Source: Powellomyces hirtus (Eukaryota > Chytridiomycota > Chytridiomycetes > Spizellomycetales > Powellomycetaceae). From it: 64,000 nucleotides of DNA. Position numbers and translations under genes: made by a program. Below, in pieces: positions 35,392-52,517 of this stretch. The stretch is from assembly GCA_025526995.1 (NCBI GenBank), contig JAHLKG010000008.1, forward strand, positions 310,001-374,000, read 5' to 3'. The notes beneath the pieces are model-generated. The model worked only from the letters and a program-made list of their open reading frames with translations. It made no database searches and was not told the origin of the DNA. Positions within the stretch are counted from its first letter, which is position 1. Every line of letters begins with the position of its first letter.

Positions 35392-35630
35392 TGTTAGCGT
35401 GTACAGACTCTGTCATCGAGTCACGACTGCACCATCGCAGGGCGTATCACGCGATCACGTGAACCCACGTGATCCACTCCGATATAAGTAGTTTTCCTTA
35501 CATACTTAAAATATTGGTGGGACTTTTCTCTTTTTCTCCGATAGAGCGGGATTAAGTTACTTCGTTGTTCTGCTCAGTCAACTACCCTAAAGCTTCCTCA
35601 ACTATCTACCCAGATACTCTCAGACCAACA
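35392..35630 (+). repeat. copia B 5' LTR
   Basis: A 239-bp LTR, TGTTAGCG...CCAACA, with two CACGTG palindromes (35456-35461 and 35466-35471) and a TATAAG box at 35483-35488 in the promoter half. It is nearly identical to 41332-41570. Confidence 0.95.
35483..35488 (+). promoter_or_regulatory. copia B LTR TATA-like box
   Basis: TATAAG lies about 12 nt downstream of the second CACGTG palindrome and about 150 nt upstream of the gag-pol start, a plausible Pol II core promoter. It is conserved in the 3' LTR. Confidence 0.5.
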
Positions 35631-35644
35631 GGTTATGAGCCCTG
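35631..35644 (+). other. copia B primer-binding site
   Basis: GGTTATGAGCCCTG directly follows the LTR and is complementary to the anticodon arm of initiator tRNA-Met, implying half-tRNA priming as in Ty5/copia. The first ATG of the polyprotein (35635-35637) lies inside this site. Confidence 0.75.
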
Positions 35645-38600
35645 AAATGGTAGGCAACGAAACGAGCCCCCGGTACACTCGTAGTATGTTAAGACGCCTA
35701 ACGGGTCGACAGACCCCAGGGTCCAATACGCTACAACGAGCCGTAGAACGTGCAGCAAAGAAAAGCGCACGAGTGCCTGGTGAACGGACATCACCAGACA
35801 ATGGAGGGAAATCTGCCGGTAACGATACACTGGCAGAGCCAACGCCTTTAAGTGTTGACGCCAACGAGGGCGACGACGCATTGGAAGGGCGTACCCAAAA
35901 CATCGACCGACACGATGGCAAGGTCGATACCCGTCCCCTATCAAGCAGTACGGATGATCACAGAACGATCAACTACAGTACTCCAGCGGCATTCCCAAGT
36001 GGGGAATCAGCGAACACCGTGCATGTCCGCCCGCGTGAGGCGGACGTGGATAGGATAGATCGGCTTGAGAATTCTCTAGCCCAACTAACGGAAATGCTCC
36101 AAATGAAATGGCGCATGGATCAGGATATGAACATCCCGGTCAACCCTCAGGTACGTACGGCGCAACGCCGCGTACGCACACCATCACCCACTTGCAACGA
36201 CGGGTTCGCTGCACCGTGGACAGAGTACAATCAGGAGATTGGAGCTCAACAGGAATACCAACGTTCTCCATTCGAACGCTGCCCTACATCACCGACATCG
36301 AGCATACACAGCGTGACGACCAAAATCGTCAACAGTCGAGGTGCGAAGGCTTTCGTGGATGGAACGCTGAAAGATATTGGATCTTACAACGGGGAAGCCA
36401 ATATGGTCAAACTTCGAACGTTCATCGACAAGATTGAGACAGTTGTGAAGTACGAAATGGTTCCGCCCGAGTTTCTTGTAGATTTTGTGGCTACGAAACT
36501 CACAGGATGGACATACACTTGGTGGCAGTCGCTCTCCCCAAGTAAAAGGAACGAAATTACGACGTGGCATGACTTTGAAGACGTTGATTCAGGCAGAACC
36601 AACACCGGTCTTAGGTCCGCCCTTCTGGTGCGGTTCGCGCCACAAAACCACACTAGGGATTCGCTGCAGAAATTACGGGAATTGCGTCCCAAAGGCCGCA
36701 TGGATGAGTACATCACTCAGTTTAACATGCTGGCATTTTCTCTGCCGAAAACACCGGATTACGTCCTTCAGGATTACTTCATCAACGCGCTAACACCAGA
36801 CCTTGCGGCCTTGGTTCAGGCTAATGAAGAAAACATAACTGATTTGAGCAGTTTACAGGCCGCTGCATCCAGGATCGCCGCCAACATGGCTAAGAAACCT
36901 AGCGGGACCTCAACGGATACGCGACCAGGTGCCGCACACACTGACGCCTCTAAGAAACAAAAGGGTGGCAAGACCCACGGGGAGAAGTCAACGAACGGCA
37001 AGAAGGACAAGGAATCCACTCCACCAAACAAAGGTCAACAATCACAAAAGTCGGGTTGTTGGGCCTGTGGAGACCCTAAACACCGAACACAGGAGTGCAA
37101 AGTGTTAAAGAAGTTCAAATCCGAGATGGAGAAGAACAAGACGAAGCAGTGGTCTGATGGTGCTGTTAGCACAAATGCTGTGGAAGCATTACACGTCTGG
37201 ATCTGCCAAGAACAACCGTATGAAGCCCTCATCGACTCTGGCGCTACGGACCACATGACACCTCACAAAGCGACCTTGGATCACTCAACCGTGTACAGTG
37301 ATGTCAGAGCTGTTATGCTTGCTGACATAACATCACTACCCTCTACAGTTCGAGGTACGGTACAAGTAGAAGTTGACGACTATCCGAATCCGCTCGAGTT
37401 GGGCGGAGTCCTGCATGTGCCAGGATTACGACGAGATCTCATATCGGTAGCGAAATGCAACGACCAAGGCGTTGACGTGCTCTTCAAATCAAATGGAGAC
37501 GTCATTTTCATGCGAGACGGCAAAGAAATCGCCAAAGGCGTACGCCGCAACAACGCGTATTACCTGCAAGGTACGCTGCTGTCTGAAAGTCTGTGGTCAG
37601 ATTCAGAAGCATGCACTGTTGAAGTCTCTCCTACACTGGCTCATGCTCGTCTTGGACACGTTGGCAAACACGTCCTGGAGAAGATGGCATCGGTTACGGA
37701 CGGTTGGTCCGTAGTGGGGGATCTAAGTGACTTCAAAGATTGTGAAGCCTGCGTGCTAGGAAAAGCCGCTCGTCTTCCATTCTCCCCTGGTAATGTTGAA
37801 GCCAGGGAGATCTGTGAGCTGATTCATTCAGACCTACAAGGACCATTTCGCATCCCTGGTTACGAAGGATCACGCTATTCGCTGGAGTTCATTGAACACA
37901 CATCCAGGTACGTGACTGTTTTCCCTATTCCTTCAAAGGATTCAGCAGTCATACTCGACAAGTTTCTCATTTACAAGGCTTGGATTGAGAAACAGACTGA
38001 CCGACACATCAAGATTCTACGCACGGATCGAGGCACCGAATACTTTGGCGAGGTTCTAGAGTACCTATTGGAAAATGGTATCACTCATCAAAAGTCCGCG
38101 GCCTATTCGAGTCAGCAAAACGGGATTGCCGAACAATGGCATCGCACGGCGCTGGACAGGGTCCGCGCCACCTTCGCGGATACGAAACTACCCCAAAGAT
38201 TCTGGCCTGCTCTACTGATAGCGGCTGGATACATCTATTCCCTTACATACAACCGCATCAACAAGAAGACGCCGCATGAAATCTTATTTGGCCAGCATCC
38301 TGATGTCGCCCATCTTTGGCGTATCGGTTGCGTGGCGTATTCCGTTCTAACGAGCAAAGGACGCGATAAAATGGGGAATCGAGCAAAGAAGGCTTACTTG
38401 GTAGGCTATGCTCAACCCTCAGGTACCAAGGGGTATCTGGTATGGGATCCGATCACTGACAAGGTCGAAGTGTCACGAGACGTGATCTTCAAAGAAGACT
38501 TGGGACTCGAACCCAAATATCAGCAGGATCCAGCCCATCTTGACCTTCTAGATGAGGAGAGTCAGGAGGATGACGTCGAATACGCCGTGGAGGCGATTAT

Positions 38601-40923
38601 TGACGAGCGCCGCAGTAAGGCGCACACAAAAGAATACTTGGTTAAATGGGAGGGATATCAAGAACCTACGTGGGAGTCCCGACTTTCACTACTTGATACT
38701 ACCGCATTGGATGACTGGGAGAATCGAGTCGCCGCGTACGATGTCGGCACACGACGAAATGACCCCATCGCTGCATACGCCGCTCGCGCGCGGACTCAAG
38801 CAACGATCAACAAAGACGCCATGACATGGAAGCAAGCAATGAAAACCCCTCAGAAGGAGGAATTTCTCAAGGCTGCACGCACTGAGTACCAATCCCTGGT
38901 CGACAACGGTACATGGGAGCTCACCAAGCGTCCACGTAACAAGCGCGTGATCGGCACAACATGGGTCTTTCGAACGAAGGTCAATCCCGATGGCACCTTT
39001 AACAAGTTCAAAGCTAGAGCAGTGGCTCAAGACTTCTCTCAACAACCTGGTCGCGATTTTGGTGATACATACTCACCTACGCTACCATTCACAGCGCTAC
39101 GCCTCTTCTTGGCGTATTGTGTTCAGCACGGGTTGGACATCCACAGTATGGACGCTGTTACCGCCTTCCTGAACAGTGATATTGATAAAGATATCTATAT
39201 CGAGCAGTTTGAGGGATTCGAAGATCCGGATCACCCCAAAGGCGATTGGGTCCTGAAGCTACTGAAAGCTCTCTACGGCCTGAAGCAATCACCTCTTCTT
39301 TGGTATGAGACCTTGAAGACTGCACTGTTGAAGCTCGGCTACGAAGCGGTTTCTGTATGCCCGTGTATCTTTTTCAAGTACGCGACAGACGACCGTACAC
39401 CTCCGTCGAACGACAACTTGGTCCTTATTCTCGTCTTCGTTGACGATCTGCTTATTGCAGCGAAGGACCCGAAGATTCTGGCGAACAGCAAAATGGAACT
39501 ACATTCGAAGTTCAAGTTTACGGAACAAGGTTGCGTAACCAGTCACCTTGGTCTCGTCTACAAATATGACTTCGACTCTCCTGTTTGTACCCTCGAAGTC
39601 TCAAATGTCAAGTACATCGACGACGCTCTTGCACAATTCGGCATGAGCGACTGCCATCCTGTCTCCACCCCGTATGCCATGTCAGTGCGTAACCAACAAC
39701 CGGAGGATTCGACACCATTCACGAATCTCAAAATGTATCAGGAAGCAGTGGGGGTCCTCACTTGGGCCTCCATCACATGGCGATGGGATATCGCCACTGC
39801 AGTCGGTTACGTTGTGCGCCGCGTGGCCGCACCTACCAACTCCGACTGGGACAATGTTAAGCGCATTTTCCGCTATTTGAAGGGTACCCGCAATTATGCC
39901 CTCAAGTTCACATCCGAACAAAATGATCCGCGTGGCCTACGCGTATTCACGGATGCGGATTATGCAGGAGAACTCACCGACCGGACGTCCACTACAGGTA
40001 TTTTGGCCCTTTACAATGGGTTTCCTGTTCTGTGGAAAAGCAGCAAGCAGAAGTGCACCGCTCAAAGTACGACCGAAGCGGAGTACATAGCTGCCAGTAC
40101 CGGCCACAACGAAGCCAAATGGCTACGCCAACTCTTGGCGGAAGTTTTGGGACCTCAACCGGATTACAAATCTCGACCGGTCCCTCTCCATGTCGATAAT
40201 CAGAGCGCCAGGGCCTTGATTCAGTCTAAGGCTATCAACCAACGCACCAAACACATCAACGTTCGGTACCACGCTATACGCAATTCGTTCGCGAAGCAAA
40301 TTATCGAAATCATCGACACCAATACGGACGATCAACTGGCGGACATCTTTACGAAGCCTTTTCCCACTGTGAAACATAAGGACACTGTCCTGAGGATTAC
40401 AAATGGGACTCATATATTTGATGAACGCATACGCAATGAGGGCGCGCCTACGGAAGCACACCAAGCTCAAGTGTTACTCGCTGAATGTCAGGAGACTTAC
40501 TCACAACACTGGCTTACCTTGGCATCTACACCGCAATTGCGGAACCCGAAGCAATGCCCCCCAAGGAGGATGGGCCTGCCCCTCCTCCATCATCCTCATC
40601 GCTTGAGGGTGAGCGTCGGCTTGGAGAGACCGATGGTCCCTCCAACTCCTCGGCTGCCCCCTCCTCCTCCTCCTCTTCCTCATCATTATATGGAGCCTCC
40701 CGCTCCAGGATGTCCCACATCCTCTTCACCTCCGCTGCAGACTTCTTGTCCGCAGTCCTCTTCTTTGCCTGGGCTGTACCCTTGCCCTTCCCAACCGCCA
40801 GCTTCCGGCTTCGCCGGTCCTCTAGTATGGACCTCAGTCCATCAAGCATCCCGCTCGCCCGTGCGCGACCAAGAGGCGTACCGGACCTCACCCGGTCCTT
40901 CACCCGGTCTTTCGCCTGCTTGA
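35635..40923 (+). CDS. copia B gag-pol polyprotein with chromodomain-like module
   Basis: One uninterrupted frame of 1,762 codons. In order: gag core (~200-430), zinc knuckle CWACGDPKHRTQEC (~475), aspartic protease LIDSGATDHMT (~536), pre-integrase HARLGHVGKHVLEKM, integrase DDE residues in HSDLQGPF (~730), RTDRGTEYF (~797) and IAEQWHRT (~831), a chromodomain-like module (~981-1028; VEAIIDERR, EYLVKWEGYQEPTWE), RT with FVDDLL (~1268), and RNase H (TDADYAGELTDR ~1439; TEAEYIAAS). RNase H normally ends a copia pol; here about 160 more residues follow that are Pro/Ser-rich and lie antisense to another gene, so they may be translated only because that gene keeps the frame free of stops. The start could be the ATG at 35635 or 35647. 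Gag:Pol ratio must be set without a frameshift, by an unknown mechanism. Confidence 0.95.
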   Translation: MSPEMVGNETSPRYTRSMLRRLTGRQTPGSNTLQRAVERAAKKSARVPGERTSPDNGGKSAGNDTLAEPTPLSVDANEGDDALEGRTQNIDRHDGKVDTRPLSSSTDDHRTINYSTPAAFPSGESANTVHVRPREADVDRIDRLENSLAQLTEMLQMKWRMDQDMNIPVNPQVRTAQRRVRTPSPTCNDGFAAPWTEYNQEIGAQQEYQRSPFERCPTSPTSSIHSVTTKIVNSRGAKAFVDGTLKDIGSYNGEANMVKLRTFIDKIETVVKYEMVPPEFLVDFVATKLTGWTYTWWQSLSPSKRNEITTWHDFEDVDSGRTNTGLRSALLVRFAPQNHTRDSLQKLRELRPKGRMDEYITQFNMLAFSLPKTPDYVLQDYFINALTPDLAALVQANEENITDLSSLQAAASRIAANMAKKPSGTSTDTRPGAAHTDASKKQKGGKTHGEKSTNGKKDKESTPPNKGQQSQKSGCWACGDPKHRTQECKVLKKFKSEMEKNKTKQWSDGAVSTNAVEALHVWICQEQPYEALIDSGATDHMTPHKATLDHSTVYSDVRAVMLADITSLPSTVRGTVQVEVDDYPNPLELGGVLHVPGLRRDLISVAKCNDQGVDVLFKSNGDVIFMRDGKEIAKGVRRNNAYYLQGTLLSESLWSDSEACTVEVSPTLAHARLGHVGKHVLEKMASVTDGWSVVGDLSDFKDCEACVLGKAARLPFSPGNVEAREICELIHSDLQGPFRIPGYEGSRYSLEFIEHTSRYVTVFPIPSKDSAVILDKFLIYKAWIEKQTDRHIKILRTDRGTEYFGEVLEYLLENGITHQKSAAYSSQQNGIAEQWHRTALDRVRATFADTKLPQRFWPALLIAAGYIYSLTYNRINKKTPHEILFGQHPDVAHLWRIGCVAYSVLTSKGRDKMGNRAKKAYLVGYAQPSGTKGYLVWDPITDKVEVSRDVIFKEDLGLEPKYQQDPAHLDLLDEESQEDDVEYAVEAIIDERRSKAHTKEYLVKWEGYQEPTWESRLSLLDTTALDDWENRVAAYDVGTRRNDPIAAYAARARTQATINKDAMTWKQAMKTPQKEEFLKAARTEYQSLVDNGTWELTKRPRNKRVIGTTWVFRTKVNPDGTFNKFKARAVAQDFSQQPGRDFGDTYSPTLPFTALRLFLAYCVQHGLDIHSMDAVTAFLNSDIDKDIYIEQFEGFEDPDHPKGDWVLKLLKALYGLKQSPLLWYETLKTALLKLGYEAVSVCPCIFFKYATDDRTPPSNDNLVLILVFVDDLLIAAKDPKILANSKMELHSKFKFTEQGCVTSHLGLVYKYDFDSPVCTLEVSNVKYIDDALAQFGMSDCHPVSTPYAMSVRNQQPEDSTPFTNLKMYQEAVGVLTWASITWRWDIATAVGYVVRRVAAPTNSDWDNVKRIFRYLKGTRNYALKFTSEQNDPRGLRVFTDADYAGELTDRTSTTGILALYNGFPVLWKSSKQKCTAQSTTEAEYIAASTGHNEAKWLRQLLAEVLGPQPDYKSRPVPLHVDNQSARALIQSKAINQRTKHINVRYHAIRNSFAKQIIEIIDTNTDDQLADIFTKPFPTVKHKDTVLRITNGTHIFDERIRNEGAPTEAHQAQVLLAECQETYSQHWLTLASTPQLRNPKQCPPRRMGLPLLHHPHRLRVSVGLERPMVPPTPRLPPPPPPLPHHYMEPPAPGCPTSSSPPLQTSCPQSSSLPGLYPCPSQPPASGFAGPLVWTSVHQASRSPVRDQEAYRTSPGPSPGLSPA

Positions 40924-41215
40924 TGTGACGTTCAAGGACCCCTTGACGGTCCTTGCGGTGGAACTGTCGGGCATACGCTGCCGACATTGTTCGAATCTCC
41001 GCTCGGGACAACCCCGCAGCGGGTGCGCCTCCCACTGGCGCAGAGGGCACTACTGACGACGGCACAGCCGGAGCTGTGGTCGTCGCCGGAGCAGTTACCG
41101 GCGGTCCCATCTTTCTCGCCGTCTGCTTAGCCTTGCCCGAACCCGACAACTACACCGGCACATAGTTAGAGCTTACGCCTCATTTGCGCGGATCTCATAG
41201 ACGTACCCTCGCCAT
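40526..41215 (-). CDS. Antisense accessory gene of copia B (basic/acidic protein, H3-tail-like N-terminus)
   Basis: On the strand opposite to gag-pol, between RNase H and the 3' LTR, is a spliced gene: exon 1 41215-41207 (ATGGCGAGG), a 57-nt intron with GTACGT donor, CTAAC branch-like site and TAG acceptor, and exon 2 41149-40526, about 210 aa in total. Without splicing, the first ATG would be at 41110 (194 aa). The N-terminus reads MARLSGSGKAKQTARKMG; then comes an Ala/Pro/Val spacer, a highly charged helical region (RQGVLERHIKQAKDRVKDRV, KRMWDILEREAPYN), a run of eight Glu and a Ser/Gly-rich tail. KQTARK equals histone H3 residues 4-9. I recognise no family. Composition is far more protein-like than the Pro-rich sense frame it overlaps. 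Promoter and expression are unknown. Confidence 0.65.
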
Positions 41216-41243
41216 TCCTCGTATTCTTAAAAATGTAATAAAT

Positions 41244-41331
41244 GGGGGTGTTTGGGGGTGTGCGTGGGGGTGTGTAGTAAAAGTAGATAGAGCAACTCTC
41301 TCACTGACAGACTGACAGGTCTGAGTGGGGG
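41244..41331 (+). other. copia B polypurine tract and upstream G5 runs
   Basis: GAGTGGGGG (41323-41331) directly precedes the 3' LTR start TGTTAG, as expected for the plus-strand primer. Three more GGGGGTG units occur at 41244, 41254 and 41266, each resembling the tract-LTR junction. The group could form a G-quadruplex or serve as accessory priming sites. Confidence 0.6.
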
Positions 41332-41570
41332 TGTTAGCGTGTACAGACTCTGTCATCGAGTCACGACTGCGCCATCGCAGGGCGTATCACGCGATCACGT
41401 GAACCCACGTGATCCACTCCGATATAAGTAGTTTTCCTTACATACTTAATATATCGGTGGGACTTTTCTCTTTTTCTCCAATAGAGCGGGATTAAGTTAC
41501 TTCGTTGTTCTGCTCAGTCAACTACCCTAAAGCTTCCTCAACTATCTACCCAGATACTCTCAGACCAACA
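41332..41570 (+). repeat. copia B 3' LTR
   Basis: 239 bp, differing from the 5' LTR at about four positions (one A/G in the left third, two in the AATATAT region, one G/A before TAGAGCGG). It is followed by the target duplication AAACC. Confidence 0.95.
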
Positions 41571-41717: not shown

Positions 41718-41722
41718 GTAAC
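41718..41722. other. Target-site duplication of gypsy element (GTAAC), left
   Basis: GTAAC directly before the LTR start TGTAATAATAC is repeated at 49812-49816 directly after the other LTR end CTCATTACA. Confidence 0.92.
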
Positions 41723-41995
41723 TGTAATAATACTAGGTCCGTTGCCAGAGTCTAGTCTTCTATTCGGGAATTCCCTATGTCTAATTCTACTGTAAGATCT
41801 CTAAGTTTTGAATGCGCCTTCGTCGGAGCATTCCTATTTCTTCTAGGCCGCGGAGCGGCCCTGGTCACGTGATGGCCATCCGTGGCCATCCCTGAGGTCT
41901 AGTACCCTTCGGGATGCTGACGCTAGCATCCATCTCGCGCGGGACCCTTCCCGACGCGTGTCTAGGCTTAGGCTGGTGAGCCACGCCTCATTACA
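41723..41995 (-). repeat. gypsy 3' LTR
   Basis: 273 bp bounded by TGTAATAATAC and CTCATTACA. It contains one CACGTG palindrome (41866-41871). On the minus strand it is preceded by the polypurine tract AAGGGGGG (41996-42003). Confidence 0.95.
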
Positions 41996-42003
41996 CCCCC
42001 CTT
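41996..42003 (-). other. gypsy polypurine tract
   Basis: AAGGGGGG on the minus strand directly abuts the LTR start TGTAATGAGG, as expected for plus-strand priming. Confidence 0.8.
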
Positions 42004-42442
42004 AGATTCGCGACTATCTCTTAGGCTCGAATCTCTTCAGCAAGGCGAAGCTTGCCTAAGCCGGGCGGCGGCGGGTTAACGGATGCTGACGTGGTTGTGG
42101 GAAGATGAGGCTGGGGAGGCGGCCCTGGCGCGGGTCGCGTCGCGGTAGTCTCCGACGGGTAGTCTCCGCCCTTCGTGGTGCGCGAAATCGTCGGAAAGTC
42201 TATTTCTCTCTTTGCAGGGGCCCTAGATGAATCACGCGTAGCTTCCTCCATGCGGATTTCGATAAGTAACATCTGCTGCGCTCCGTAGGGGATGAAACAC
42301 TAACACCTGAATTTCCGAGCGTTCCCAAGCAGGTCGAGCCTTTAAAAGGTACTGCCCGTTGAATCTCCCCCTCTCGCTCTTCTTTTCTTTGTAGCTCGAC
42401 GAACTCACACCACACACACACACATACGCACACACACACACC
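42004..42442 (+). other. Putative promoter/5' UTR of gypsy accessory gene
   Basis: The stretch upstream of the antisense gene contains a TTTAAAAGG TATA-like box near 42,340, a pyrimidine-rich segment (CTCCCCCTCTCGCTCTTCTT) at about 42,365, and a CA-dinucleotide microsatellite at 42,408-42,441 directly before ATG. This layout is what a Pol II promoter with leader would look like; it is not a remnant of gag or pol. Confidence 0.5.
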
Positions 42443-43190
42443 ATGGCTGACACCCCCAACAACTCTCCTCCCCCCCCCAACACCACCACCACCACCATGG
42501 GCAAGCGCCGGCCCGCCCAGCAACTTGCGAAAGGCGCAACCAAGCGGGTCCAGCCCGCCCGGGTGAGTAGGGGTCGGTGCTCGTCCTCGGCTGTGGCAAC
42601 TCGTCTCATGTTCCCCGTCTTTCCTTGTTGTCTACAGGACCCCTCGGTCCATGAAAAGTCCACCCCCGAGAGGTCGGCCGACTTGCCCTCTTGCTGGAAG
42701 TGCAACCAATTCCGCAAGAGCAAGATGTTCACATCGGAATGCCACCATTTGGTGTGCCGGCCCTGCATCGTGGCGGCGGCCGATGACACAGTATGTCCCC
42801 CCCCTTCGATGAGAGGCGGCCTGATGTCTTCCTAACGGTGTGGTTCCTTCGTTCCTTTGCTTTCCAGAACGACGGCCCTCAGGGCCAGTTGACGTGCGGC
42901 GCCCCCCACTGCGGCCGGGTTCTCTTCTTTGCGGCCATCCCCGCTGGGTGCCAGTTCGCTGGCTGCAACCATGTCGGAGCGGACCTCCGCATGTTTCCAT
43001 GCAACCATCTCCACTGCATGGGCCACGTCTGCGCGTAAGTAGTACTCTTCGGCCTGCTGCTGTCGTACCTGACTAACTCAGCTCTCTCCGCAGCGAGATG
43101 AACGTGGCAAATTACACCCCCCTCCGGTGCGGGTTGGGCGACCGGTGCCACGGCAACCGGTGCCAATTCTCCTTCACCAAGATTGGTTGA
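42443..43190 (+). CDS. Antisense spliced accessory gene of gypsy element, two RING-like zinc modules
   Basis: Four exons (42443-42562, 42638-42790, 42868-43034, 43094-43190) with GTGAGT, GTATGT and GTAAGT donors and CAG acceptors join in phase and give about 178 aa. After a basic Pro/Thr-rich N-terminus, module 1 has C-x2-C-x12-C-x-H-x2-C-x2-C (CWKCNQF ... CHHLVCRPC) and then TCGAPHCG. Module 2 repeats the pattern as GCQFAGCNH, CNHLHCMGHVC and RCGLGDRCHGNRC. The first set fits the first six to seven ligands of a RING finger; the modules look like an internal duplication. RING proteins are often E3 ubiquitin ligases, but that is only inference; it could also be a nucleic-acid-binding zinc protein. 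It lies opposite to gag-pol between pol and the 3' LTR. Confidence 0.85.
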
Positions 43191-43439
43191 TTAGTTCTCC
43201 CCCCCCTCCTTCTTGTACATACTTTCACTTGTTGTCTGTTGCTCCTTCGGGGCCTGGCCTTCGGCCCGTATAATCAAATTCAGTACCACAATCTCATCGC
43301 TGTACTTGCCTTCTCATCGCTGTGCTCCCTTGAGCCTTATAGCATTTCGTATGCGTCCGCTGTGTCCAATGTCACTCGGCTTCCTCCCGGCTATGGTGCT
43401 CATGGTAGATGCCCTGCATCACACTTCCCCGTTGGGAAG
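43191..43439. other. Spacer after gypsy accessory gene
   Basis: Non-coding; it starts with a C-rich run (about 43,197-43,208) and probably holds the 3' end of the accessory transcript. The repeat array starts near 43,400. Confidence 0.4.
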
Positions 43440-44330
43440 ACCGCCCAGCGGTTCCCCGGCCATCGTCCAACGATGCCGGTATCTCACCTAGTGAGGTCTA
43501 CTGCCTCGCAGTCTTCGGCTCATCGCCCAGCGATCCCGGCATCTCGCCCAGCGAGGTATGTCGCCCAGCGACCTTTGGCCCATCGTCAAACGATGCCGGC
43601 ATCTCACCTCGTGAGGTCTACTGCCTCGCAGTCTTCGGCTCATCGCCTAGCAATCCCGGCATCTCGCCCAGCGAGGTATGTCGCCCAGCGACCTTCGGCC
43701 CATCGTCAAACGATGCCGGCATCTCACCTCGTGAGGTCTACTGCCTCGCAGTCTTCGGCTCATCGCCCAGCGATCCCGGCATCTCGCCCAGCGAGGTATG
43801 TCGCCCAGCGACCTTCGGCCCATCGTCAAACGATGCCGGTATCTTGGCCGAAGCCCTTCTCTTCCCCTTTGCGTGGGTATGTACTACGGCCATGGTCCCC
43901 ACGGGTCTCGAGGTACGCTGCCATGCAAATCTGGTGCCGGTCACCTTGCATCGGCAGCCGGTCGATGCCCAGCATCACCCTTCTCACCCAGTGAGGTATG
44001 CCGCCCAGCGGCCTTCGGCCCATCGTCAAACGATGCCGGTATCTTGGCCGAAGCCCTTCTCTTCCCCTTCGCGTAGGTATGTACCACGGCCATGGTCCCC
44101 GCGGGTCTTGAGGTACGCCGCCATGCAAATCTGGTGCCGGTCACCTTGCATCGGCAAGCCGTCGGCTCATCGCCCAGCGATCCCGGCATCTCACCCAGTG
44201 AGGTATGCTGCCCAGCAGCCTTCGGCCATCGTCCAACGATGCCGGCATCTCGCCCAGCGAGGCATGCTGTCCAACAGCCTCCGGCCATCGTCCAACGATG
44301 CCGGAATCTCGCACTATAATGTCCTCTACC
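43440..44330. repeat. Hairpin-rich tandem repeat array in gypsy element
   Basis: A 120-bp unit recurs exactly three times (CATCGCCCAGCGATCCCGG-type words at 43,521, 43,641 and 43,761), flanked by variant units. A second repeat of about 200 bp (TATCTTGGCCGAAGCCC at about 43,840 and 44,040) follows. Within every unit short palindromes such as ATCGTCAAACGAT, CTCGCCCAGCGAG and CGCCCAGCG occur roughly every 20 nt. Long frames open through the array on both strands (for example 43,409-44,338) are repeat translations with no domain content. Confidence 0.85.
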
Positions 44331-44373
44331 TCAAGTAGCATCTCTCTTGTTAATTTACGGTACAGCTCACTAT

Positions 44374-47300
44374 CTAGGTTCTCTTACGTCGCCTGGCCGC
44401 TAGCCTTTGGCCGCGGTCCTCTCCGGGGTGCTCCCGGAGCCATTCTTCCAGCGCGGTCGTCCCCTTCACGTGTGCATACGGCTCCCACGTGTTCTGGGTG
44501 CTGTCGTAACCTGTCCACTTGACTAAGAACTGCTCGGTGTTCCTGTGCCATCTGGCATTTAGGATCTTATCCACTTGGTAGGTCTCCTGACCGTCTTCGT
44601 CCTTCTCGGGCTCAGGCGGAGCGGTGACCTGTCTGTACGGGGTATCGCCCGGGTCATGGTAACGTCTCAGAATGCTGACGTGAAAGACTGGGTGCAATCC
44701 GGTGAACTCCTTGGGTAGTTCGAGCTCGTAGGTGTCAGGATGCGGCCCCTTGCCGCGTACTGTGAATGGCCCAATCCATTGCTCAGCCAGCTTTTTGTTC
44801 CTTGTGGTGACGCTGGTAATCGCGATACCCTCACGATGGAGTAAGACCTTGTCACCCTCTCGGTATGCTTCCGTGTGCTTCTTGCGGTCGTAGTACTTTG
44901 CCTGCTGGTCCTGTGCATCTCGGAGCCGTTGCTGCACGATGCGACTCACGTCGGCGAATTCCTTAATCCGTCTCTCCACGGCGGTTCGTGCCGATTGCCT
45001 TATCATCTCTCCGGGGTTAGGTGCTACCCATTGGTTCGGTACCCGGGGAACGCGGCCTAGGTCAATCTCGAAAGGGGATAGTCCCGTCGACGTCTGCGGC
45101 GTTCGGTTGTAGTTGTACTCGAGTGTGGGGAGTAAACTCTTCCAGTTGGAGCCGGCATAGTCGAGAAAGGGGCCCATGATTCCCTTGATCGTCTTGATGG
45201 CGTTCTCCGCCTTGCCGTCGGTCTGTTGGTGTCGTGCCGACGAGAGTTCTTGCTTGACGTCGAGTGCCCGCATGAGGTACCGCCAGAATTCTGATAGCCA
45301 CTTGGGGTCCCGATCGCTCACGATGGTGTGGGGTAACCCCGTGTGGCGAAATGCCTGTTCCAGAAAGAGTTGAGCCGTCTCCTGAGCTGTAGCGCGTGTG
45401 TTAGTAGGTAGGAGTATCACGCGGCATGAAAGGTAGTCGACGATGAGGAGTACGGCGTCTGCCGTCTTGGTCAGTCTCTCGCCGGTGTGGTGCGGAGGGT
45501 TCTTCGTCACGTCGGGCTCTACCCGAGGTTCCCCCCCCTTAGGGTCTGACGTGGGGAAGAATATATCCATGCCGATTTGTTGCCAACGGGCGTCGGGGAT
45601 CGGTAAGCTGCGGAGGAAACCGATCGGCGCGGTTCGCTTGTGACGTTGGCAGGTAGGGCAGGTGCGGACATATTGGTACACATCACGCTCCATGTGGGGC
45701 CAGTAATACGACTCCAGAAGTTTGGCAAGCGTCCGTTGGACACCGGAGTGACCACCGTTCGCGAGGGAGTCGTGATGAATCTGAAGGAGTGGCCCCCGCA
45801 AGCTGTCGGGGACGTACCGACGGTCATGGTACATCAAGAATCGGTGCGGAGGGGAGTCCACTGTCCGGAATCGGCGTGCATGGCCGGATAGGTTCTCCGG
45901 GGGACTGTTGATGGTTAGTAAGATGTTTTGGCCGAAATCATCCGATGCGAGTGCCTGGGTCCAGTCCGCATCGGTCGGCATGTGCGTCGTGATGGGCTTC
46001 TCCGTCTGCACAATGGCGGTGACCACGTCGATCTTGGCCTGGCAGGTTGCACACTTGGGGGCGTAAGTCGGGTCGCGACTGAGGAAGTCGGCGATCGAAT
46101 TCCAGGTGCCGGGGAGGTATTCCACTGAGAAATCGAACTGTTGGAGGAACTCGACCCAGCCTGCTTGGCGACGTGACAGGTGGGGTTGTTCCTGGAGGTA
46201 GATCAGGGACTTGTGGTCAACAAACGCGCGGAATGGGCGGCCGATGAGGTAATGGCGGTTGGCGCGTATGGACTTGACTAATCCCAGTAGTTCTTGTTCA
46301 TGCACGGGGTATCGAGTCTCGGCGGGTTGCATCTTGCGGGAGTAGTATGTCACCGGGCGAAGTTGCGGGAGGTTGGCTAAGCCCGATTTGGTGGTTGGTA
46401 GTGGGTGAGGGTAAGGGAAATCCCCTTTGGCCGGCTGCGCCAGCCATCCGCCGTAGGCGTAGCCCGATGCGTCCGTGAACAAGTAGGTGTCGAGCGCCGG
46501 GTCGAAGTACGCTAGGGTGGGTGCCGAGGAGCATAATTCCTTTAAGCGATTGAACGCTCGATCTTCCTTGTCACCCCACTGCCATGGGCGGTTGCCGGAT
46601 TGCAGATTCGTTAGGGGTAGGGCAATCTGTGCATACTCGGGGATGTATTCCTTGACATAGTTGACGAGGCCCATGAAGCTAAGGAGCTCCAGGGAGTTGG
46701 TCGGGCGAGGTCGTTCCCGGACCGCGGTCACCTTGGAGGGGGCGATACTTAGGCCATCCTTGCCGACTCGGTGGCCGCAGAACTCGACTTCGTCAACCGC
46801 CCATTGACATTTGCTGGGTTTGACGTGGAGGCGATGTTCCGTCAAGGTCTTGAGGACCTCGTCGACGTGCTGAATGTGCGAACTCATGTCGGTGCTGAAT
46901 ATGAGGATATCGTCAAGGTATGAGATCACGTAGGCGTCGTACTTGTCGCCCAAGAGCTTGTTGGTTAGTCGCTGGAATGTAGCAGGTGCATTAGTTAAGC
47001 CGAAAGGTAGAACATTGTATTCTAAATGTCCAAAACGTGTTCGGAACGCTGTTTTCTCCCTATCTTCCGGTCGGATCATGATGCAGTGGTACGCGTCGCG
47101 GATGTCGATCGCGGTGAATACCCGCATGTTGACAAGCCTGTTGCGCAGCTCCGAGAGGTTCGGAAGTGGTGTGGCATCCTTGTGAGTCATCTTGTTCAGT
47201 GCCCGGTAGTCAATGCAGCAGCGTAGGCCGCCGTCCTTCTTTGGGGCAAATAGGACGGGCGCGCCCCACGGACTGCGAGAGTGTGAGATCCAACCCTTGT

Positions 47301-48303
47301 CCATTAAACGCTGCATCTGCTGGCCGAGCTCGTCCAGTTCGTCAGGGCTCAAATGCCGGAGTGGCTGCATCACGGGCTTCGAGCCGGGTTTGAGCCGAAT
47401 GGTGAAATTGTCCTCGCCTCGGTCCGGAGGCATGCCTGACTGCTCGGTGAATAGCGTCGTGACGTATTTTTCTAGGGTCAGTCGGAGTGGATGGTCGGCT
47501 GCCAGCGTCTCTAGCGGGTCTTCTTGATCTGCCGCCTTGGCTTCAGTATTGGTGTGGCGTCGTTCCTCCAAGATTGCCCTTTTCTTGGCGTCGACCGTCC
47601 GTACAAATTGAGCCTCTGCGACTGGAATCGCATCTACGATGTGTACCTCAAAGACTCCAGTGATCTCGCCCTTCTTCATCAAGCGTTTCCATTGCTTGGC
47701 CGTGTAGATTCCCTCTGCATTGAGTGCTGGCTTCGCCGGCTGGAATCTGCGGGGCCGTACCTCTCGTGGGGAGAGTAGACGGGCGGCGCACGCGGATGGT
47801 GCTTCCCAGTGGCGGTTGGTCGATTTGGCTCGAAGGCTGAGGGTCTGGCCGTCGTGGTAGAACGTCATCGTTGGAAAGCCCCCTTGGTCGAAAAGCCCTC
47901 GGACGTCCAGCCCCAATATGAATGGCAAGCCCAGTATGGCATCGACCCTGATCGGCGCGACCACGAACGGTACGGTATCCTCCCGGTAGATGATCTTCTC
48001 CTCGGTGAACACCGAGAGGTCCCCACAGGTCATCTTTGTTGCCCCGTAGTTTCCCGCTCTGTCGCCCCACCGGACCTCCAGCGGAGTTGGGGAGGTGTAG
48101 GTCCGGAGGCCGTGTTTGGCGGCCCAAGTGTCGCTGATGATCAGGGTGTTACATCCGGTATCGATTAGGATGCGGGCAAAGTGCCCTTGTACCTTCCCGT
48201 GGACCACAAATGTCTTCCTGTGAATGCGGGGTCCCGGTCTGTCCATGGGGATCTTGTCTTGCATTCGGGGTTGGGGTACTGAGACGGTGCAAGCGTTCAG
48301 CAC
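44374..48303 (-). CDS. gypsy Pol polyprotein (PR-RT-RH-IN-chromodomain)
   Basis: An uninterrupted frame of about 1,309 residues. Protease LIDTGCNTLI is at ~46-55; RT contains CCIDYRALNK, VLPFGLTNAPATFQ and the catalytic YLDDILIF (~459); RNase H contains FTDASGYAYGGWL; integrase has the HHCC zinc finger (HHDSLANGGHSG ... CPTCQRH, ~844) and the catalytic core (GMDIFFP, IVSDRDPKW, TDGKAENAI). A chromodomain closes it (YQVDKILNARWHR, FLVKWTGYDSTQNTWEP, ~1237-1290), which places it among chromoviruses. About 30 extra residues sit between GMDIFFP and LLIVDYLSC. The first sense codon near the overlap is GTG, not ATG, and pol lies in -1 frame relative to gag with a 7-nt overlap, so a -1 frameshift or reinitiation is needed. 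Confidence 0.95.
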   Translation of the reverse strand: MLNACTVSVPQPRMQDKIPMDRPGPRIHRKTFVVHGKVQGHFARILIDTGCNTLIISDTWAAKHGLRTYTSPTPLEVRWGDRAGNYGATKMTCGDLSVFTEEKIIYREDTVPFVVAPIRVDAILGLPFILGLDVRGLFDQGGFPTMTFYHDGQTLSLRAKSTNRHWEAPSACAARLLSPREVRPRRFQPAKPALNAEGIYTAKQWKRLMKKGEITGVFEVHIVDAIPVAEAQFVRTVDAKKRAILEERRHTNTEAKAADQEDPLETLAADHPLRLTLEKYVTTLFTEQSGMPPDRGEDNFTIRLKPGSKPVMQPLRHLSPDELDELGQQMQRLMDKGWISHSRSPWGAPVLFAPKKDGGLRCCIDYRALNKMTHKDATPLPNLSELRNRLVNMRVFTAIDIRDAYHCIMIRPEDREKTAFRTRFGHLEYNVLPFGLTNAPATFQRLTNKLLGDKYDAYVISYLDDILIFSTDMSSHIQHVDEVLKTLTEHRLHVKPSKCQWAVDEVEFCGHRVGKDGLSIAPSKVTAVRERPRPTNSLELLSFMGLVNYVKEYIPEYAQIALPLTNLQSGNRPWQWGDKEDRAFNRLKELCSSAPTLAYFDPALDTYLFTDASGYAYGGWLAQPAKGDFPYPHPLPTTKSGLANLPQLRPVTYYSRKMQPAETRYPVHEQELLGLVKSIRANRHYLIGRPFRAFVDHKSLIYLQEQPHLSRRQAGWVEFLQQFDFSVEYLPGTWNSIADFLSRDPTYAPKCATCQAKIDVVTAIVQTEKPITTHMPTDADWTQALASDDFGQNILLTINSPPENLSGHARRFRTVDSPPHRFLMYHDRRYVPDSLRGPLLQIHHDSLANGGHSGVQRTLAKLLESYYWPHMERDVYQYVRTCPTCQRHKRTAPIGFLRSLPIPDARWQQIGMDIFFPTSDPKGGEPRVEPDVTKNPPHHTGERLTKTADAVLLIVDYLSCRVILLPTNTRATAQETAQLFLEQAFRHTGLPHTIVSDRDPKWLSEFWRYLMRALDVKQELSSARHQQTDGKAENAIKTIKGIMGPFLDYAGSNWKSLLPTLEYNYNRTPQTSTGLSPFEIDLGRVPRVPNQWVAPNPGEMIRQSARTAVERRIKEFADVSRIVQQRLRDAQDQQAKYYDRKKHTEAYREGDKVLLHREGIAITSVTTRNKKLAEQWIGPFTVRGKGPHPDTYELELPKEFTGLHPVFHVSILRRYHDPGDTPYRQVTAPPEPEKDEDGQETYQVDKILNARWHRNTEQFLVKWTGYDSTQNTWEPYAHVKGTTALEEWLREHPGEDRGQRLAARRRKRT

Positions 48304-49508
48304 CCGGGGTGAAAATCCGAGCTGTTGACTGAGCCCCCGTCGCTGGCCGCCTCGTCTCCGGACCCTTCGGTGATCTCTACAGGGGCGGCGAACGTCCTAT
48401 GCTCACCGGTTTTACCTTTACTTGCTGGGCACCCACGGGCGTAATGCCCCTTGCCCCCGCAGTTGAAACATTCGTTGCGCTCACGGCGTTCGTCGTAGAT
48501 GGTGCGCTCACGGCGTGAAATCCCTTGGTAGTTGTCCATACCGCGTGTGGGACGACCTGAGCCATAGGGGGTGTGGCATCCCCTTTCTCGTGCTTGATAG
48601 TTCCCTCGATGTACCTGAGCCGGCTGGACTGCAGCGTACTGACGTCTCCTCCCGTCGGGGGTTACCCGCGCGACATCGTCCGCATAGCCTCGAATCCTGT
48701 AGCATAGTAGAGCTTCATTCTGTAGCTTGGTGATCGGGATCTCGGCGCCATTATTCCTCATGATTGCGGCATAGCAGTGGTCCCGAATGCGCTGGCCGAC
48801 ATGGTTGGTCGAGAATCCCGTCAAGAAATAGTCACGTTCTTGCCTTGGGGTAAGCCGCTCCTTGTCGTCAAGCGTCGCGATCTGGGCCCGAAGGGTATTG
48901 AACTTGGCGATATACTCCGATATGCTATTGGTGAAAACCAACCGCTTCATCTTTGCTTCTGCGGTGTTTCGTAAGTTGGTGGGGTAGAAGCGGATGCGGA
49001 GGATCCTCGTGAATTCTTCCAATGTCGTGGGCTGGTCGCCGGCATCTCTGAGCATTTGCCACCATTTGTCGGCGGTTTCCTTGAGGTACCCCGAGATGTG
49101 GTCGACGTCCCGGTGGTCCGTCCTGAAGTCGGTTGCCTCAAGGTAGTGCGTGTGGACCTTCAGGAACTCGTCGACCTTCGACACCATTTCTTCACTGTTC
49201 CCTTTTCCGTCGAAGTGTGTCAGCTGCTTGCGAAGGTTCTCGCGGCGTTCCTTCTCAGCTTGCATTCGTGCGCGGTTTTCTTCCGCCAGGATGATGTCGA
49301 CGTGCGGTGTTGCAACCGCTGGTTGGACTGGGGTCGGAATCCTTGAGAGAAGGGCTTCGAAGCGGGCCTCTCCCATTGCGATCTGTTCCTGCAGTAGGCG
49401 TTGGGTCTCCGCCAATTGTGCAGCTAACATTGCGACGGGGTTGTCGGTCGGTGTGTCGGCTTTGGGTTCTCCTACTGCCATTGGGCTGTTCCTGGTGCTA
49501 CGTGCCAT
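48297..49508 (-). CDS. gypsy Gag
   Basis: About 403 aa from the ATG at 49508, only 28 nt inside the 5' LTR. It has a helical retrotransposon gag core (SGYLKETADKWWQMLRDAG, RIRFYPTNLRNTAEAKMKR) and one CCHC knuckle, CFNCGGKGHYARGC, followed by an acidic Ser-rich end. The stop overlaps the 5' end of pol. No lesion is seen. Confidence 0.95.
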   Translation of the reverse strand: MARSTRNSPMAVGEPKADTPTDNPVAMLAAQLAETQRLLQEQIAMGEARFEALLSRIPTPVQPAVATPHVDIILAEENRARMQAEKERRENLRKQLTHFDGKGNSEEMVSKVDEFLKVHTHYLEATDFRTDHRDVDHISGYLKETADKWWQMLRDAGDQPTTLEEFTRILRIRFYPTNLRNTAEAKMKRLVFTNSISEYIAKFNTLRAQIATLDDKERLTPRQERDYFLTGFSTNHVGQRIRDHCYAAIMRNNGAEIPITKLQNEALLCYRIRGYADDVARVTPDGRRRQYAAVQPAQVHRGNYQARERGCHTPYGSGRPTRGMDNYQGISRRERTIYDERRERNECFNCGGKGHYARGCPASKGKTGEHRTFAAPVEITEGSGDEAASDGGSVNSSDFHPGC

Positions 49509-49536
49509 TGTTGTCGTCTACGGGGTGGTGCTACCA

Positions 49537-49811
49537 TGTAATAATACTAGGTCCGTTGCCAGAGTCTAGTCTTCTATTCGGGAATTCCCTATGTCTAATT
49601 CTACTGTAAGATCTCTAAGTTTTGAATGCGCCTTCGTCGGAGCATTCCTATTTTTCTTCTAGGCAGCGGAGCGGCCCTGGTCACGTGATGGCCATCCGTG
49701 GCCATCCCTGAGGTCTAGTACCCTTCGGGATGCTGACGCTAGCATCCATCTCGCGCGGGACCCTTCCCGACGCGTGTCTAGGCTTAGGCTGGTGAGCCAC
49801 GTCTCATTACA
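49537..49811 (-). repeat. gypsy 5' LTR
   Basis: 275 bp, nearly identical to 41723-41995. The inner end on the minus strand is followed by TGGTAGCACCACCCC, a TGG-starting primer-binding site complementary to the 3' end of an unidentified tRNA. Confidence 0.93.
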
Positions 49812-49816
49812 GTAAC
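49812..49816. other. Target-site duplication of gypsy element (GTAAC), right
   Basis: Right copy of the GTAAC duplication; copia A gag sequence continues from here. Confidence 0.92.
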
Positions 49817-50648
49817 GCGAGAGGAAGGGAGGCTTGAAGGATTCCCAATCCGTGATGGGCTCCACCATCCCTTGTTCGGCATCTTTCTGGTGATTACGAT
49901 ACCATTGTTTTGTTTCGCCAGAGAGCTTCGTGAAGATGAATGAGAGTTGTTCTTCTTCAGATACAGGTTTTAGGTGAAAGACTAGAGTAAGTTGATCGAC
50001 GAAGTCGGCGAGTTTTGAGAGATTTCCCGTCCCGTCGAATGTAGATACTGCATCGATCGCAGATTTGAAATATGTGAATGATGTACGTTGTGCGTCGCGA
50101 TCATCGCTCTTTCTGCTGCTCGTAGTTGTTGTGCTCTCCGTTGGGGAAGACGGACGAAAGTGAGGGGCAACTGGGGCTTCAACTTCGCCGTGAGTAATGT
50201 GTTGATGTAGAAAAGGGTACTCAAGGCCTGCTTTTGGGCTTCTCATTGGTGAAACGGCCATAGGATGACCACCGATATGAGACTTTTTGTACTTCTCAGG
50301 TTGTTGATGGGAAGTTGATGTAGCGAGAGGGTTTGAACTAGTCAATAAAGTCCTCTCCAACCTGTCCATCCGATGGTCGAGCTTTTCGTCGATTTCCATC
50401 TTGAACCTCTGCAGAATTTCCATGACAATGTCAGTCGGTACTTCGGACGGTACTATCGCCGAGTCTGCATGAATTTCTCCATGATTCATCTCATCCACAT
50501 CGGCATCTGCGTCGTGGGAATCATGGTAGATCGAGGCATCGATATTAACGTCTTCTTCAGCGTCAGGACCCCGTTGGGCTTCTCGTGTGGCTTGACGGGC
50601 TTGTTGGCGGGTCTGCACTCCTTGAATGGGAGATCTTGCAGTAGGCAT
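49812..50648 (-). pseudogene. copia A copy 1 gag, 5' part
   Basis: The gag start MPTARSPIQGVQTRQQ at 50648 stays open to the gypsy insertion, about 279 aa of copia A. It includes a gag core (FDGTGNLSKLADFVDQ, FTKLSGETKQWYRNH) of UBN2/retrotrans-gag type. The reading frame then runs into the gypsy LTR. Copies 2-4 carry the same region with stops; this is the least damaged gag of the family in the window. Confidence 0.9.
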
Positions 50649-50746
50649 CTTGACGGTGTGCTCGGTACTTTCTTGGCACTTGAATTTTGACGGAAGACTT
50701 GTAGTTTACAGGTTTTACGAAGGGAGAATGATTCGAATTCGACCGG

Positions 50747-50763
50747 TCTCAGGGCTCATAACC
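50747..50763 (-). other. copia A copy 1 primer-binding site
   Basis: On the minus strand GGTTATGAGCCCTGA directly follows the 5' LTR. It is complementary to the anticodon stem-loop of initiator tRNA-Met (CAGGGCUCAUAACC), as described for Drosophila copia and yeast Ty5, not to the tRNA 3' end. Confidence 0.75.
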
Positions 50764-51133
50764 TATTGGAGATATTGGCACTTCCAGTACTTTATCGGAA
50801 TTGCAGAGGATTGGCCGAATTCGATATGGCCTCCAGTATACTTCGTAAGAGGGGGTTACAGAGCTCTTCTGTGATGCAGTTGACGATGTAGCGTTGTCAG
50901 ATGCACGGAGATGCAATGTATGTGAAAGTATTTTATGTCTTAAAGTCTTATCAGTAATGTCTCGCTTGTCGAGCGTTCTAATCTACTTTTTCTCCAATCA
51001 CGTGATCACACGTGATCCAATTCAGCTCTTAGCGTTACCGGTATGGTGGTCACGCGTTCTAGTCGGAGAATCCAAGTAAGGATCTAATGCAAGGACCAAG
51101 ATCTAATGCAAGGACCAAACGTTGAGTACGCAA
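50764..51133 (-). repeat. copia A copy 1, 5' LTR (truncated at its start)
   Basis: It is homologous to 31117-31485 in the same orientation. The element-outer end stops at GTTGAGTACGCAA and lacks the first 19 nt of the LTR. A 19-nt direct duplication (GATCTAATGCAAGGACCAA, twice) lies at about 51081-51119. It abuts a plus-oriented LTR head-to-head, forming the palindrome listed separately. Confidence 0.85.
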
Positions 51134-51347
51134 ATTAGATCTTGGTCCTTGCATTAGATCCTTACTTGGATTCTCCGACTAGAACGCGTGACCACCATAC
51201 CGGTAACGCTAAGAGCTGAATTGGATCACGTGTGATCACGTGATTGGAGAAAAAGTAGATTAGAACGCTCGACAAGCGAGACATTACTGATAAGACTTTA
51301 AGACATAAAATACTTTCACATACATTACATCTCCGTGCATCTGACAA
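50894..51347. repeat. Near-perfect palindrome at head-to-head copia A LTRs
   Basis: The arms 50894-51107 and 51134-51347 are near-perfect reverse complements (both encode the same 61-codon frame), centred at 51120.5 with a 26-nt spacer (51108-51133). Weaker inverted similarity continues outward through PBS and gag of both elements. Such palindromes can extrude cruciforms and are hot spots for rearrangement. Confidence 0.9.
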
Positions 51348-51479
51348 CGCTACACCGTCATCTGCATCACAGAAGAGCTCTGTAAACCCCCCTTTACGTA
51401 GTTTACTGGAGGCCTACATCGAATTCGGCCAATCCTCTGCAATTCCGATAAAGTACTGGAAGTTCCGATATCTCCAATA
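51134..51479 (+). repeat. copia A copy 2, 5' LTR (truncated)
   Basis: 346 bp, homologous to 56445-56816 but lacking the first part of the LTR and carrying the 19-nt duplication in inverted form relative to the neighbouring copy. Confidence 0.85.
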
Positions 51480-51494
51480 GGTTATGAGCCCTGA
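51480..51494 (+). other. copia A copy 2 primer-binding site
   Basis: GGTTATGAGCCCTGA follows the LTR, the same half-tRNA-Met-type site as in copies 1, 3 and 4 and in copia B. Confidence 0.75.
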
Positions 51495-51594
51495 GACCGG
51501 TCGAATTCGAATCATTCTCCCTTCATAAAAACCTGAAAACTACCAGTCTTCCGTCGAATTCAAGTGCCAAGAAAGTACCAAGCACACCGTCAAG

Positions 51595-52517
51595 ATGCCT
51601 ACTGCAAGATCTCCCATTCACGGAGTGCAGACCCGCCAACAAGCCCGTCAAGTCATACAATAAGCCAAACGGAGTCCTGACGCTGAAGGAGACGTTAACA
51701 ATGATGCCTCAATCTACCATGATTCCCACGACACAGATGCTGATGTGGATGAGACGAATCCTGGAGAAATTGATGCAGAACTGGCGACAGAACTGACCAG
51801 ACCGCAGACTGACATAGTTATGCACTTCTGCAGAGGTTCAAGATGGAAATGGACGAAAAGTTCAACCATTGGATGGAGAAGTTGGAGAAGACTCTCTTTA
51901 CTAGGTCAGATCCTCTTGCTACATCACCTTCCCATCAATACGAAAAGTACGAAAACGGAAATCCTCACATCGGCGGTTATAATCCACCTACTTCACCGAT
52001 GAGAAGCCTAAAAGCGGCCCCAGAGTACCCTTTTCTACATCAACACATTACTCACGACGAAGTTGAAGCCCCAGTTGCCCCTCACTTTCGTCCGTCTTCC
52101 CCAACCGAGAGCACAACAACTACAAGCAGCAGAAAGAGTGATGACCGTGAAGCCCAGCGCACATCATTCACATTCTTTCAATCAGCGATTAATGCAGTCA
52201 TCACATTCGACGGAACGGGAAATCTCTCAAAGCTCGTCGACTTTGTTGATCAAATTGAAGTGGTCTTTCGTCTCAAATCTGTACCTGGAGAAGAACAACT
52301 TGCATTCATCTTCACCAAGCTCTCTGGCAATGCAAAACAGTGGTATCGGAACTACTGCAAAGAGGCTGAAAAGGGGAATACTGACCCCATCACAAATTGA
52401 CAAACTTTCAAGCGACCATTCCTCCGGCGTTATCACCCAACCGATCACGAGGAAGTCCTACTCACTCAGCTGGAAAGACTACGACAAGGAAGCCATACCA
52501 TCTCGCAGTACAATACC
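51595..52517 (+). pseudogene. copia A copy 2 gag remnant
   Basis: The start MPTARSPIHGVQTRQQ at 51595 is followed by an in-frame TAA at about 51660; later open blocks (51745-52002, 51843-52400) lie in different frames. The gag core text (FDGTGNLSKLVDFVDQ, TKLSGNAKQWYRNY) is recognisable. It is non-functional. Confidence 0.88.

Follow-up and report, generated by a model that had tools for sequence, protein, structure and literature searches.

The plant elements Grande, RIRE2, Retand and PvRetro13 and the fungal element Boty are known to carry antisense additional open reading frames (ORFs) between pol and the 3′ LTR (PMC7264820). In Retand, the antisense genes are of the TRP28 type, and about half of the elements also contain tandem repeats in the same region (PMC11963269). 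The function of antisense accessory genes is called unknown in both of these accounts (PMC7264820; PMC11963269). Splicing is mentioned in PMC7264820 for env-like transcripts, along with a call to search for antisense and spliced transcripts. Among retroviruses, spliced antisense transcripts are reported for the deltaretroviruses HTLV-2, -3 and -4 and the STLVs (PMC8622228), while the bdelloid third ORFs, as presented in PMC5408684, are of other kinds.

The window analysed here is a 64,000-nucleotide stretch of contig C8 (310001-374000) in the Powellomyces hirtus genome, and coordinates refer to it unless a contig is named. It contains a Ty3/gypsy chromovirus with a gene on the strand opposite gag-pol. 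We consider it likely that this is a true accessory gene of the element, antisense and built of four exons, which would encode a small zinc-binding protein and exist in two recombining versions. The original prediction regarded a spliced antisense gene in such an element as a type not known before, a view that the plant elements and fungal Boty do not bear out (PMC7264820). The antisense extra gene is a known category, and what is new here is the combination of three introns with a two-version structure, the two versions being unexpected. A literature search on antisense or spliced genes in LTR elements and on Powellomyces, with subscription papers (including the original brtn paper) outside its scope, returned no report of this gene.

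The plant aORF-3R genes (Grande gene23, RIRE2 and Retand TRP28) are likewise antisense, sit between pol and the 3′ LTR, and occur in most copies of their elements (PMC7264820; PMC11963269). For Grande gene23, an upstream promoter of its own has been shown (PMC7264820; PMC11963269), whereas the Powellomyces gene has a conserved leader block that is a candidate promoter. The Powellomyces element resembles about half of the Retand elements in its tandem repeats in the same region (PMC11963269). The Powellomyces gene differs from the plant genes in its three introns, its RING-like Cys/His protein, the lack of a TRP28 match and its two divergent versions, and the word “intron” is found in neither PMC7264820 nor PMC11963269. 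The brtn gene of Boty, from Botrytis cinerea and Sclerotinia, likewise lies antisense between pol and the 3′ LTR, in a fungal LTR element (PMC7264820); Boty is called BcGypsy1 in PMC8365987, and we liken brtn to the Powellomyces gene by position and strand alone. HBZ and APH-2 of the HTLVs are likewise antisense regulator genes of a retroelement, with spliced antisense transcripts (PMC8622228), but HBZ is a bZIP factor of a retrovirus and we claim no sequence relation. The public “oncoid” protein P0001 belongs to the same gene family, but is annotated as unspliced and as a viral gene.

Host Element Architecture

The Ty3/gypsy element spans 41723-49811, with the minus strand as its sense strand, and is flanked by the target-site duplication GTAAC on the left (41718-41722) and right (49812-49816). 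Its 3′ LTR (41723-41995) and 5′ LTR (49537-49811) are direct repeats with TG…CA ends and are 98.5% identical. An apparent polypurine tract, AAGGGGGG on the sense strand, adjoins the 3′ LTR (41996-42003), and an apparent primer-binding site that begins with TGG on the sense strand adjoins the 5′ LTR (49516-49536). The gag frame (48297-49508, minus strand) is open and includes a zinc knuckle. The pol frame (44374-48303, minus strand), also open, matches protease, RT, RNase H, integrase and chromodomain. These LTRs, the target-site duplication, gag, and the pol order PR-RT-RH-IN with a chromodomain identify the element as a Ty3/gypsy chromovirus, as complete as originally predicted. Between the antisense gene and pol lie tandem repeats with units of about 60 bp (43442-44332), spanning about 900 bp. 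The antisense gene itself (42443-43190) falls inside the GTAAC-flanked interval, as had been proposed.

The surroundings of the element have features of their own. Directly beyond it, nested long inverted repeats (49813-52432, with arms of 441, 261, 266, 113 and 113 nt) hold gag-like ORFs resembling those of a copia element that is nested in another copy of the gypsy element, L047. On the other side is a Ty1/copia element (35392-41570, plus strand) with an antisense 207-aa ORF at the 3′ end of its pol (40526-41149, minus strand), partly overlapping the copia pol ORF. This ORF has at least 128 genomic matches listed; by hand count, at least 197 of its 207 residues are covered in the first 100, of which 77 are free of stops. 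Against Pfam, it gave nothing above cut-off. The copia polyprotein (35635-40923, plus strand) matches a chromodomain (PF00385, residues 983-1031) between integrase and RT, an unusual feature for Ty1/copia.

Gene Structure and Predicted Splicing

The gene would be read from the strand opposite gag-pol, with a four-exon structure that we infer from comparison of its copies. Exon 1 (42443-42562, plus strand throughout) includes a poly-C run at 42470-42478 and is followed by intron 1 (42563-42637, 75 nt). Exon 2 (42638-42790) encodes the first six ligands of a RING-like Cys/His module, and intron 2 (42791-42867) is 77 nt in the window and 74-81 nt elsewhere. Exon 3 (42868-43034), intron 3 (43035-43093, 59 nt) and exon 4 with the stop codon (43094-43190) complete the gene. 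All three introns have GT-AG ends, and the joined exons make 537 nt, or 178 codons plus a stop. The four exons, canonical splice sites and in-phase 178-aa product have exactly the coordinates that the original prediction gave.

Comparison among copies, which fall into a type 1 (including the window copy) and a type 2, supports splicing in several ways. The three introns are present in all 77 aligned copies, and intron 2 ranges over 74-81 nt regardless of multiples of three. Intron lengths are 75, 77 and 59 nt in the type-1 reference copy and 59, 76 and 62 nt in the type-2 reference. Since intron 1 is 58 or 59 nt in 17/17 type-2 copies read, exons 1 and 2 of this type have no common frame unless spliced. 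Between the types, exons are 62-69% identical, compared to 44-51% for introns. Two public Powellomyces hirtus proteins also bear on the model: P0002 is the spliced product of the type-2 copy L047, letter for letter, and P0007 agrees with the spliced model over introns 1 and 2, then departs from it. From the sequence comparisons, the gene is almost certainly spliced, and it is real and under selection as an antisense accessory gene. A chance ORF is ruled out by the codon pattern and by the introns shared among copies.

Antisense placement would also allow the introns to persist through retrotransposition, because it is the sense RNA that is reverse transcribed, and on the sense strand of the genomic RNA these segments would not be introns. 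The retention of all three in 77/77 copies is consistent with this.

Copies Across the Genome

We searched the 29.26-Mb assembly for other copies, one of the checks that the original prediction had proposed. In the DNA search, the best 40 of 81 candidates were scored, and each is at least 92% identical over at least 746 of 748 bases; the protein search gave 153 matching pieces. The gene sequence was taken from 81 copies, including that of the window (82 extracted entries, with one copy present twice), and with the diverged or partial copies L048, L065, L066 and L067 left out, 77 were aligned, 60 of type 1 and 17 of type 2. Among these, 56/77 keep an uninterrupted spliced frame (type 1, 43/60; type 2, 13/17), and 44/77 combine a full frame with all six GT/AG ends (34/60 and 10/17), the remaining 33 having no full frame or a missing splice end. 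These counts are not all independent insertions, since some copies are segmental duplicates (L025/L026, L020/L021).

Twelve type-1 copies are frameshifted, and in 11 of them the off-frame exon is exon 1. The poly-C run in those 11 is 5 to 19 long, differing in each from the 9 of the window, and some need further changes in exon 1. Exon 4 of L070 is in addition lengthened by an 18-nt insertion, and in L084, the twelfth copy, the shift is in exon 3. The variation in poly-C length may reflect slippage, assembly error or a real length switch.

The association of the gene with the element was followed from both sides, by pairing matches by hand. Of 42 LTR-leader matches listed (40 nearly complete), 38 adjoin all or part of the gene. 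Of the other four, one is a leader on C9 that is truncated, one (on C1) consists of LTR alone, and two form a tandem pair, also on C1 (C1:128476-129494 and C1:136234-137252), with a leader-tail gap of 35 bp and with pol 3′ ends present. The gene is therefore not required in cis by every copy. Beyond the pol end, all or part of the gene is found at 32 of 35 scored pol loci; of the other three, the locus on C53 runs off the contig, and the gene side of C33:31113 and C56:8928 was not read. Both totals are samples, since the genome search scores best candidates only. The antisense gene is a regular component of the element and moves with it, as was first proposed. The outcome named as refuting, in which other copies lack the gene or show random stops, is seen in only a few copies with stops and one tandem pair without the gene.

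Leader and Candidate Promoter

Upstream of the antisense gene, a conserved block on the plus strand (42266-42325) is a candidate promoter region. It is 90-93% identical to the type-2 copies L047 and L049, while flanking 30-nt blocks are 67-70% and 80% identical, and its second half (42296-42325) matches the decayed copy L048 at 28 of 29 positions. Further downstream, about 100 nt before the ATG, is a putative TATA-like box, CCTTTAAAAGG (42339-42349, plus strand). The box follows a consensus of CCTT(T/C)AAAAGG, with one change in L047 and L049, and one change plus one extra A in L048. A CA-rich stretch (42407-42441, plus strand) lies between the box and the ATG, and the type-2 and L048 leaders are without it. 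The original prediction had given the gene its own candidate leader, with the TATA-like box and the CA microsatellite; the first is conserved in L047, L049 and L048, but the second is absent from type 2 and L048. We read the stretch at 42266-42349 as the likely promoter of the antisense gene, which would probably place a promoter of its own directly inside the 3′ LTR. The stretch may also have a sense-strand role.

Predicted Protein Product

At 14 Cys and 6 His positions, the residue is conserved in at least 52 of the 56 proteins from copies with a whole frame. Eight of the positions, Cys59, Cys62, Cys75, His77, Cys80, Cys83, Cys101 and Cys106, have C3HC4-like spacing and are kept in at least 53/56, and a second Cys/His cluster follows this module. 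Against Pfam RING models, the window protein scores below cut-off (16.3 bits, compared to 21 for PF00097). A sequence search of solved structures gave weak matches, the best being the RING of PCGF5 (E = 0.029 with the window protein and 0.018 with a profile), and AlphaFold modelling of P0002 with 12 other rows had a mean pLDDT of 33. As the Pfam matches are weak and the AlphaFold model is of low confidence, the RING-like assignment comes from the spacing. The TRP28 domain (PF04195) was absent from the Pfam matches of the window protein to E = 10 and from those of a set of five proteins (A1). Two protein searches, which reach relatives sharing short exact words, found no relative outside Powellomyces and matched P0001, P0002 and P0007 only.

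The gene probably encodes a zinc accessory factor of RING-like type. This protein would most likely be a RING-type regulator, E3-ligase-like or a transcription cofactor, that acts on a host or element protein in favour of the element, although a specific E3 or cofactor activity is a guess.

Purifying Selection on the Coding Sequence

The original prediction also proposed a dN/dS comparison across copies, and the result is purifying selection. For 54 distinct intact sequences, the codon model gives an omega of 0.247 (lnL −5069.07), a value somewhat lowered by taking intact copies only. With omega fixed at 1, the best lnL over four kappa values tried is −5222.01, at about the same kappa as in the free model. 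In pairwise comparisons, omega ranges over 0.30-0.39 for four pairs between the types and over 0.22-0.49 for seven pairs within a type. For pol, omega between copies is 0.15-0.48 in five usable pairs, with the window-L025 pair excluded for a shifted frame in its ungapped reading.

The called frame has the lowest omega of the six frames, and no stops, in the three pairs tested, the third being nearly tied. Between the window copy and L047, omega is 0.30 in the called frame and 0.54-1.33 in the other five, while between the window copy and L038, both type 1, it is 0.41, compared to 0.42 in one minus-strand frame that has stops. Exons and introns vary about equally within type 1 (0.23 and 0.26), so the selection signal rests on the codon pattern and on the deeper comparisons.

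A product of the sense strand was rejected. In the window-L047 pair, the other five frames have the higher omega values given above, 9 of their 10 frame-by-sequence counts contain stops, and the stop-free case (minus frame 0, window copy) has an omega of 1.12.

Two Gene Versions and a Mosaic History

The type-1 and type-2 proteins are 56-58% identical, and the elements that carry them are far more alike in their other parts. L047, which carries a type-2 gene, matches the window copy at 97.8% identity over the last 537 nt of pol and at 94-95% in the LTR, compared to 85-86% in the leader and 62-69% in the exons. Its tail is 84-86% identical to that of the window before the nested copia insertion and 96% after it. 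The dS of the gene between the window copy and L047 is 1.16, whereas the pol ends differ at 2.2%; with a dS of this size, a fast-evolving protein alone does not explain the contrast. Two further type-2 elements were followed into pol, a sister on C15 (by DNA) and one on C29 (by protein match). The pol end adjoining the C15 gene is 99% like that of L047, the figure for the pol end of the window being 98%, and the pol adjoining the C29 gene is 94% identical to that of the window in protein.

L048 (C16:595500-603400) is a decayed and more distant element, with 57% protein identity in pol across 278 residues. By eye, it looks strongly decayed by C-to-T/G-to-A changes, as through CpG loss. Its gene is nearer type 1, with an exon transversion distance of 0.119 between the window copy and L048 and 0.205 between the window copy and L047, but for the pol end the order is reversed (0.203 and 0.022, respectively). 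In an unrooted gene tree, a branch with 100% support separates L047, L062, L063 and L066 from the type-1 side, where L048 also falls.

Because gene and pol distances conflict for both L047 and L048, the gene with part of the leader has had a different history from the rest of the element. Recombination between lineages would be the simplest account, with approximate breakpoints. Two long-diverged versions would thus circulate within one element family, the gene module being exchanged through recombination. Two versions and module exchange together suggest target specificity or an arms race. Taken further, a family that keeps two ancient antisense RING-like versions, swapped by recombination in an otherwise nearly uniform element, could hold a specificity or immunity-type locus shaped by conflict with the host or with sibling elements, a tentative idea that we think somewhat doubtful.

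Alternative Explanations

Selection could act on the antisense RNA itself, for example as dsRNA that tunes silencing of the element, with the protein incidental. Antisense RNA roles have been proposed for such elements (PMC7264820) and the leader block is strongly conserved, but the low omega over 54 distinct coding sequences, the Cys/His positions kept across versions only 56-58% identical, and the introns that are less alike than exons between types all point to the protein. We find the RNA-only account improbable, although an RNA role may exist in addition to that of the protein. A protein product could also arise without splicing, as a read-through ORF of about 197 aa with introns retained, which is how the type-1 product appears in P0001. 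That record translates introns 1 and 2 in frame, and by hand count 27 genomic protein matches stay open across 188 or more of its 197 residues. The window copy, however, closes inside intron 2 (ORF 42443-42835), the 58- or 59-nt intron 1 in 17/17 type-2 copies leaves exons 1 and 2 out of frame with each other if it is not removed, intron 2 varies in length regardless of frame, and P0002 reads as spliced. Read-through as the general product is thus very unlikely, while some copies may have an intron-retained isoform.

The origin of the gene can be questioned as well. P0001 comes from a record of 21,205 bases and bears the name “oncoid” of Powellomyces chytrid fungus MELD virus 1, and the gene might be native to this midsize DNA virus and captured by the retrotransposon, or the reverse. 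Several genomic type-1 copies, however, have an unspliced frame that is 95-96% identical to P0001, which fits an element copy in or beside a viral contig. “Oncoid” is, in PMC11071296, defined solely by short linear motifs, and the word “chytrid” is absent from the main text of that paper. The MELD virus 1 record was not among the matches of a gag search, but gag may be unannotated there, and a search for the virus polymerase family PolB is uninformative, as it had no match anywhere, controls included. The MELD virus 1 record most likely contains a copy of the gene of this element, and a viral origin or transfer seems unlikely to us. Least probable of all, to the point of being hardly credible, is recent capture of a host gene fragment by one or a few copies. 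LTR elements are known to transduce genes (PMC7264820), but the gene adjoins nearly all of the listed leaders and scored pol loci (38/42 and 32/35), exists in two old versions and is also found in the distant element L048, and the protein searches, within their reach, gave only P0001, P0002 and P0007. A spliced, protein-coding accessory gene that belongs to the element remains the reading that we prefer.

Significance for Retrotransposon Biology

If the gene is spliced as the comparisons suggest, an LTR retrotransposon of an early-branching fungus keeps an intron-bearing gene through reverse transcription by means of its antisense placement. The mismatch between the histories of the gene and of pol suggests a testable selective conflict. 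With many natural copies and two versions, the Powellomyces element provides material for working out the role of antisense accessory genes in retrotransposons.
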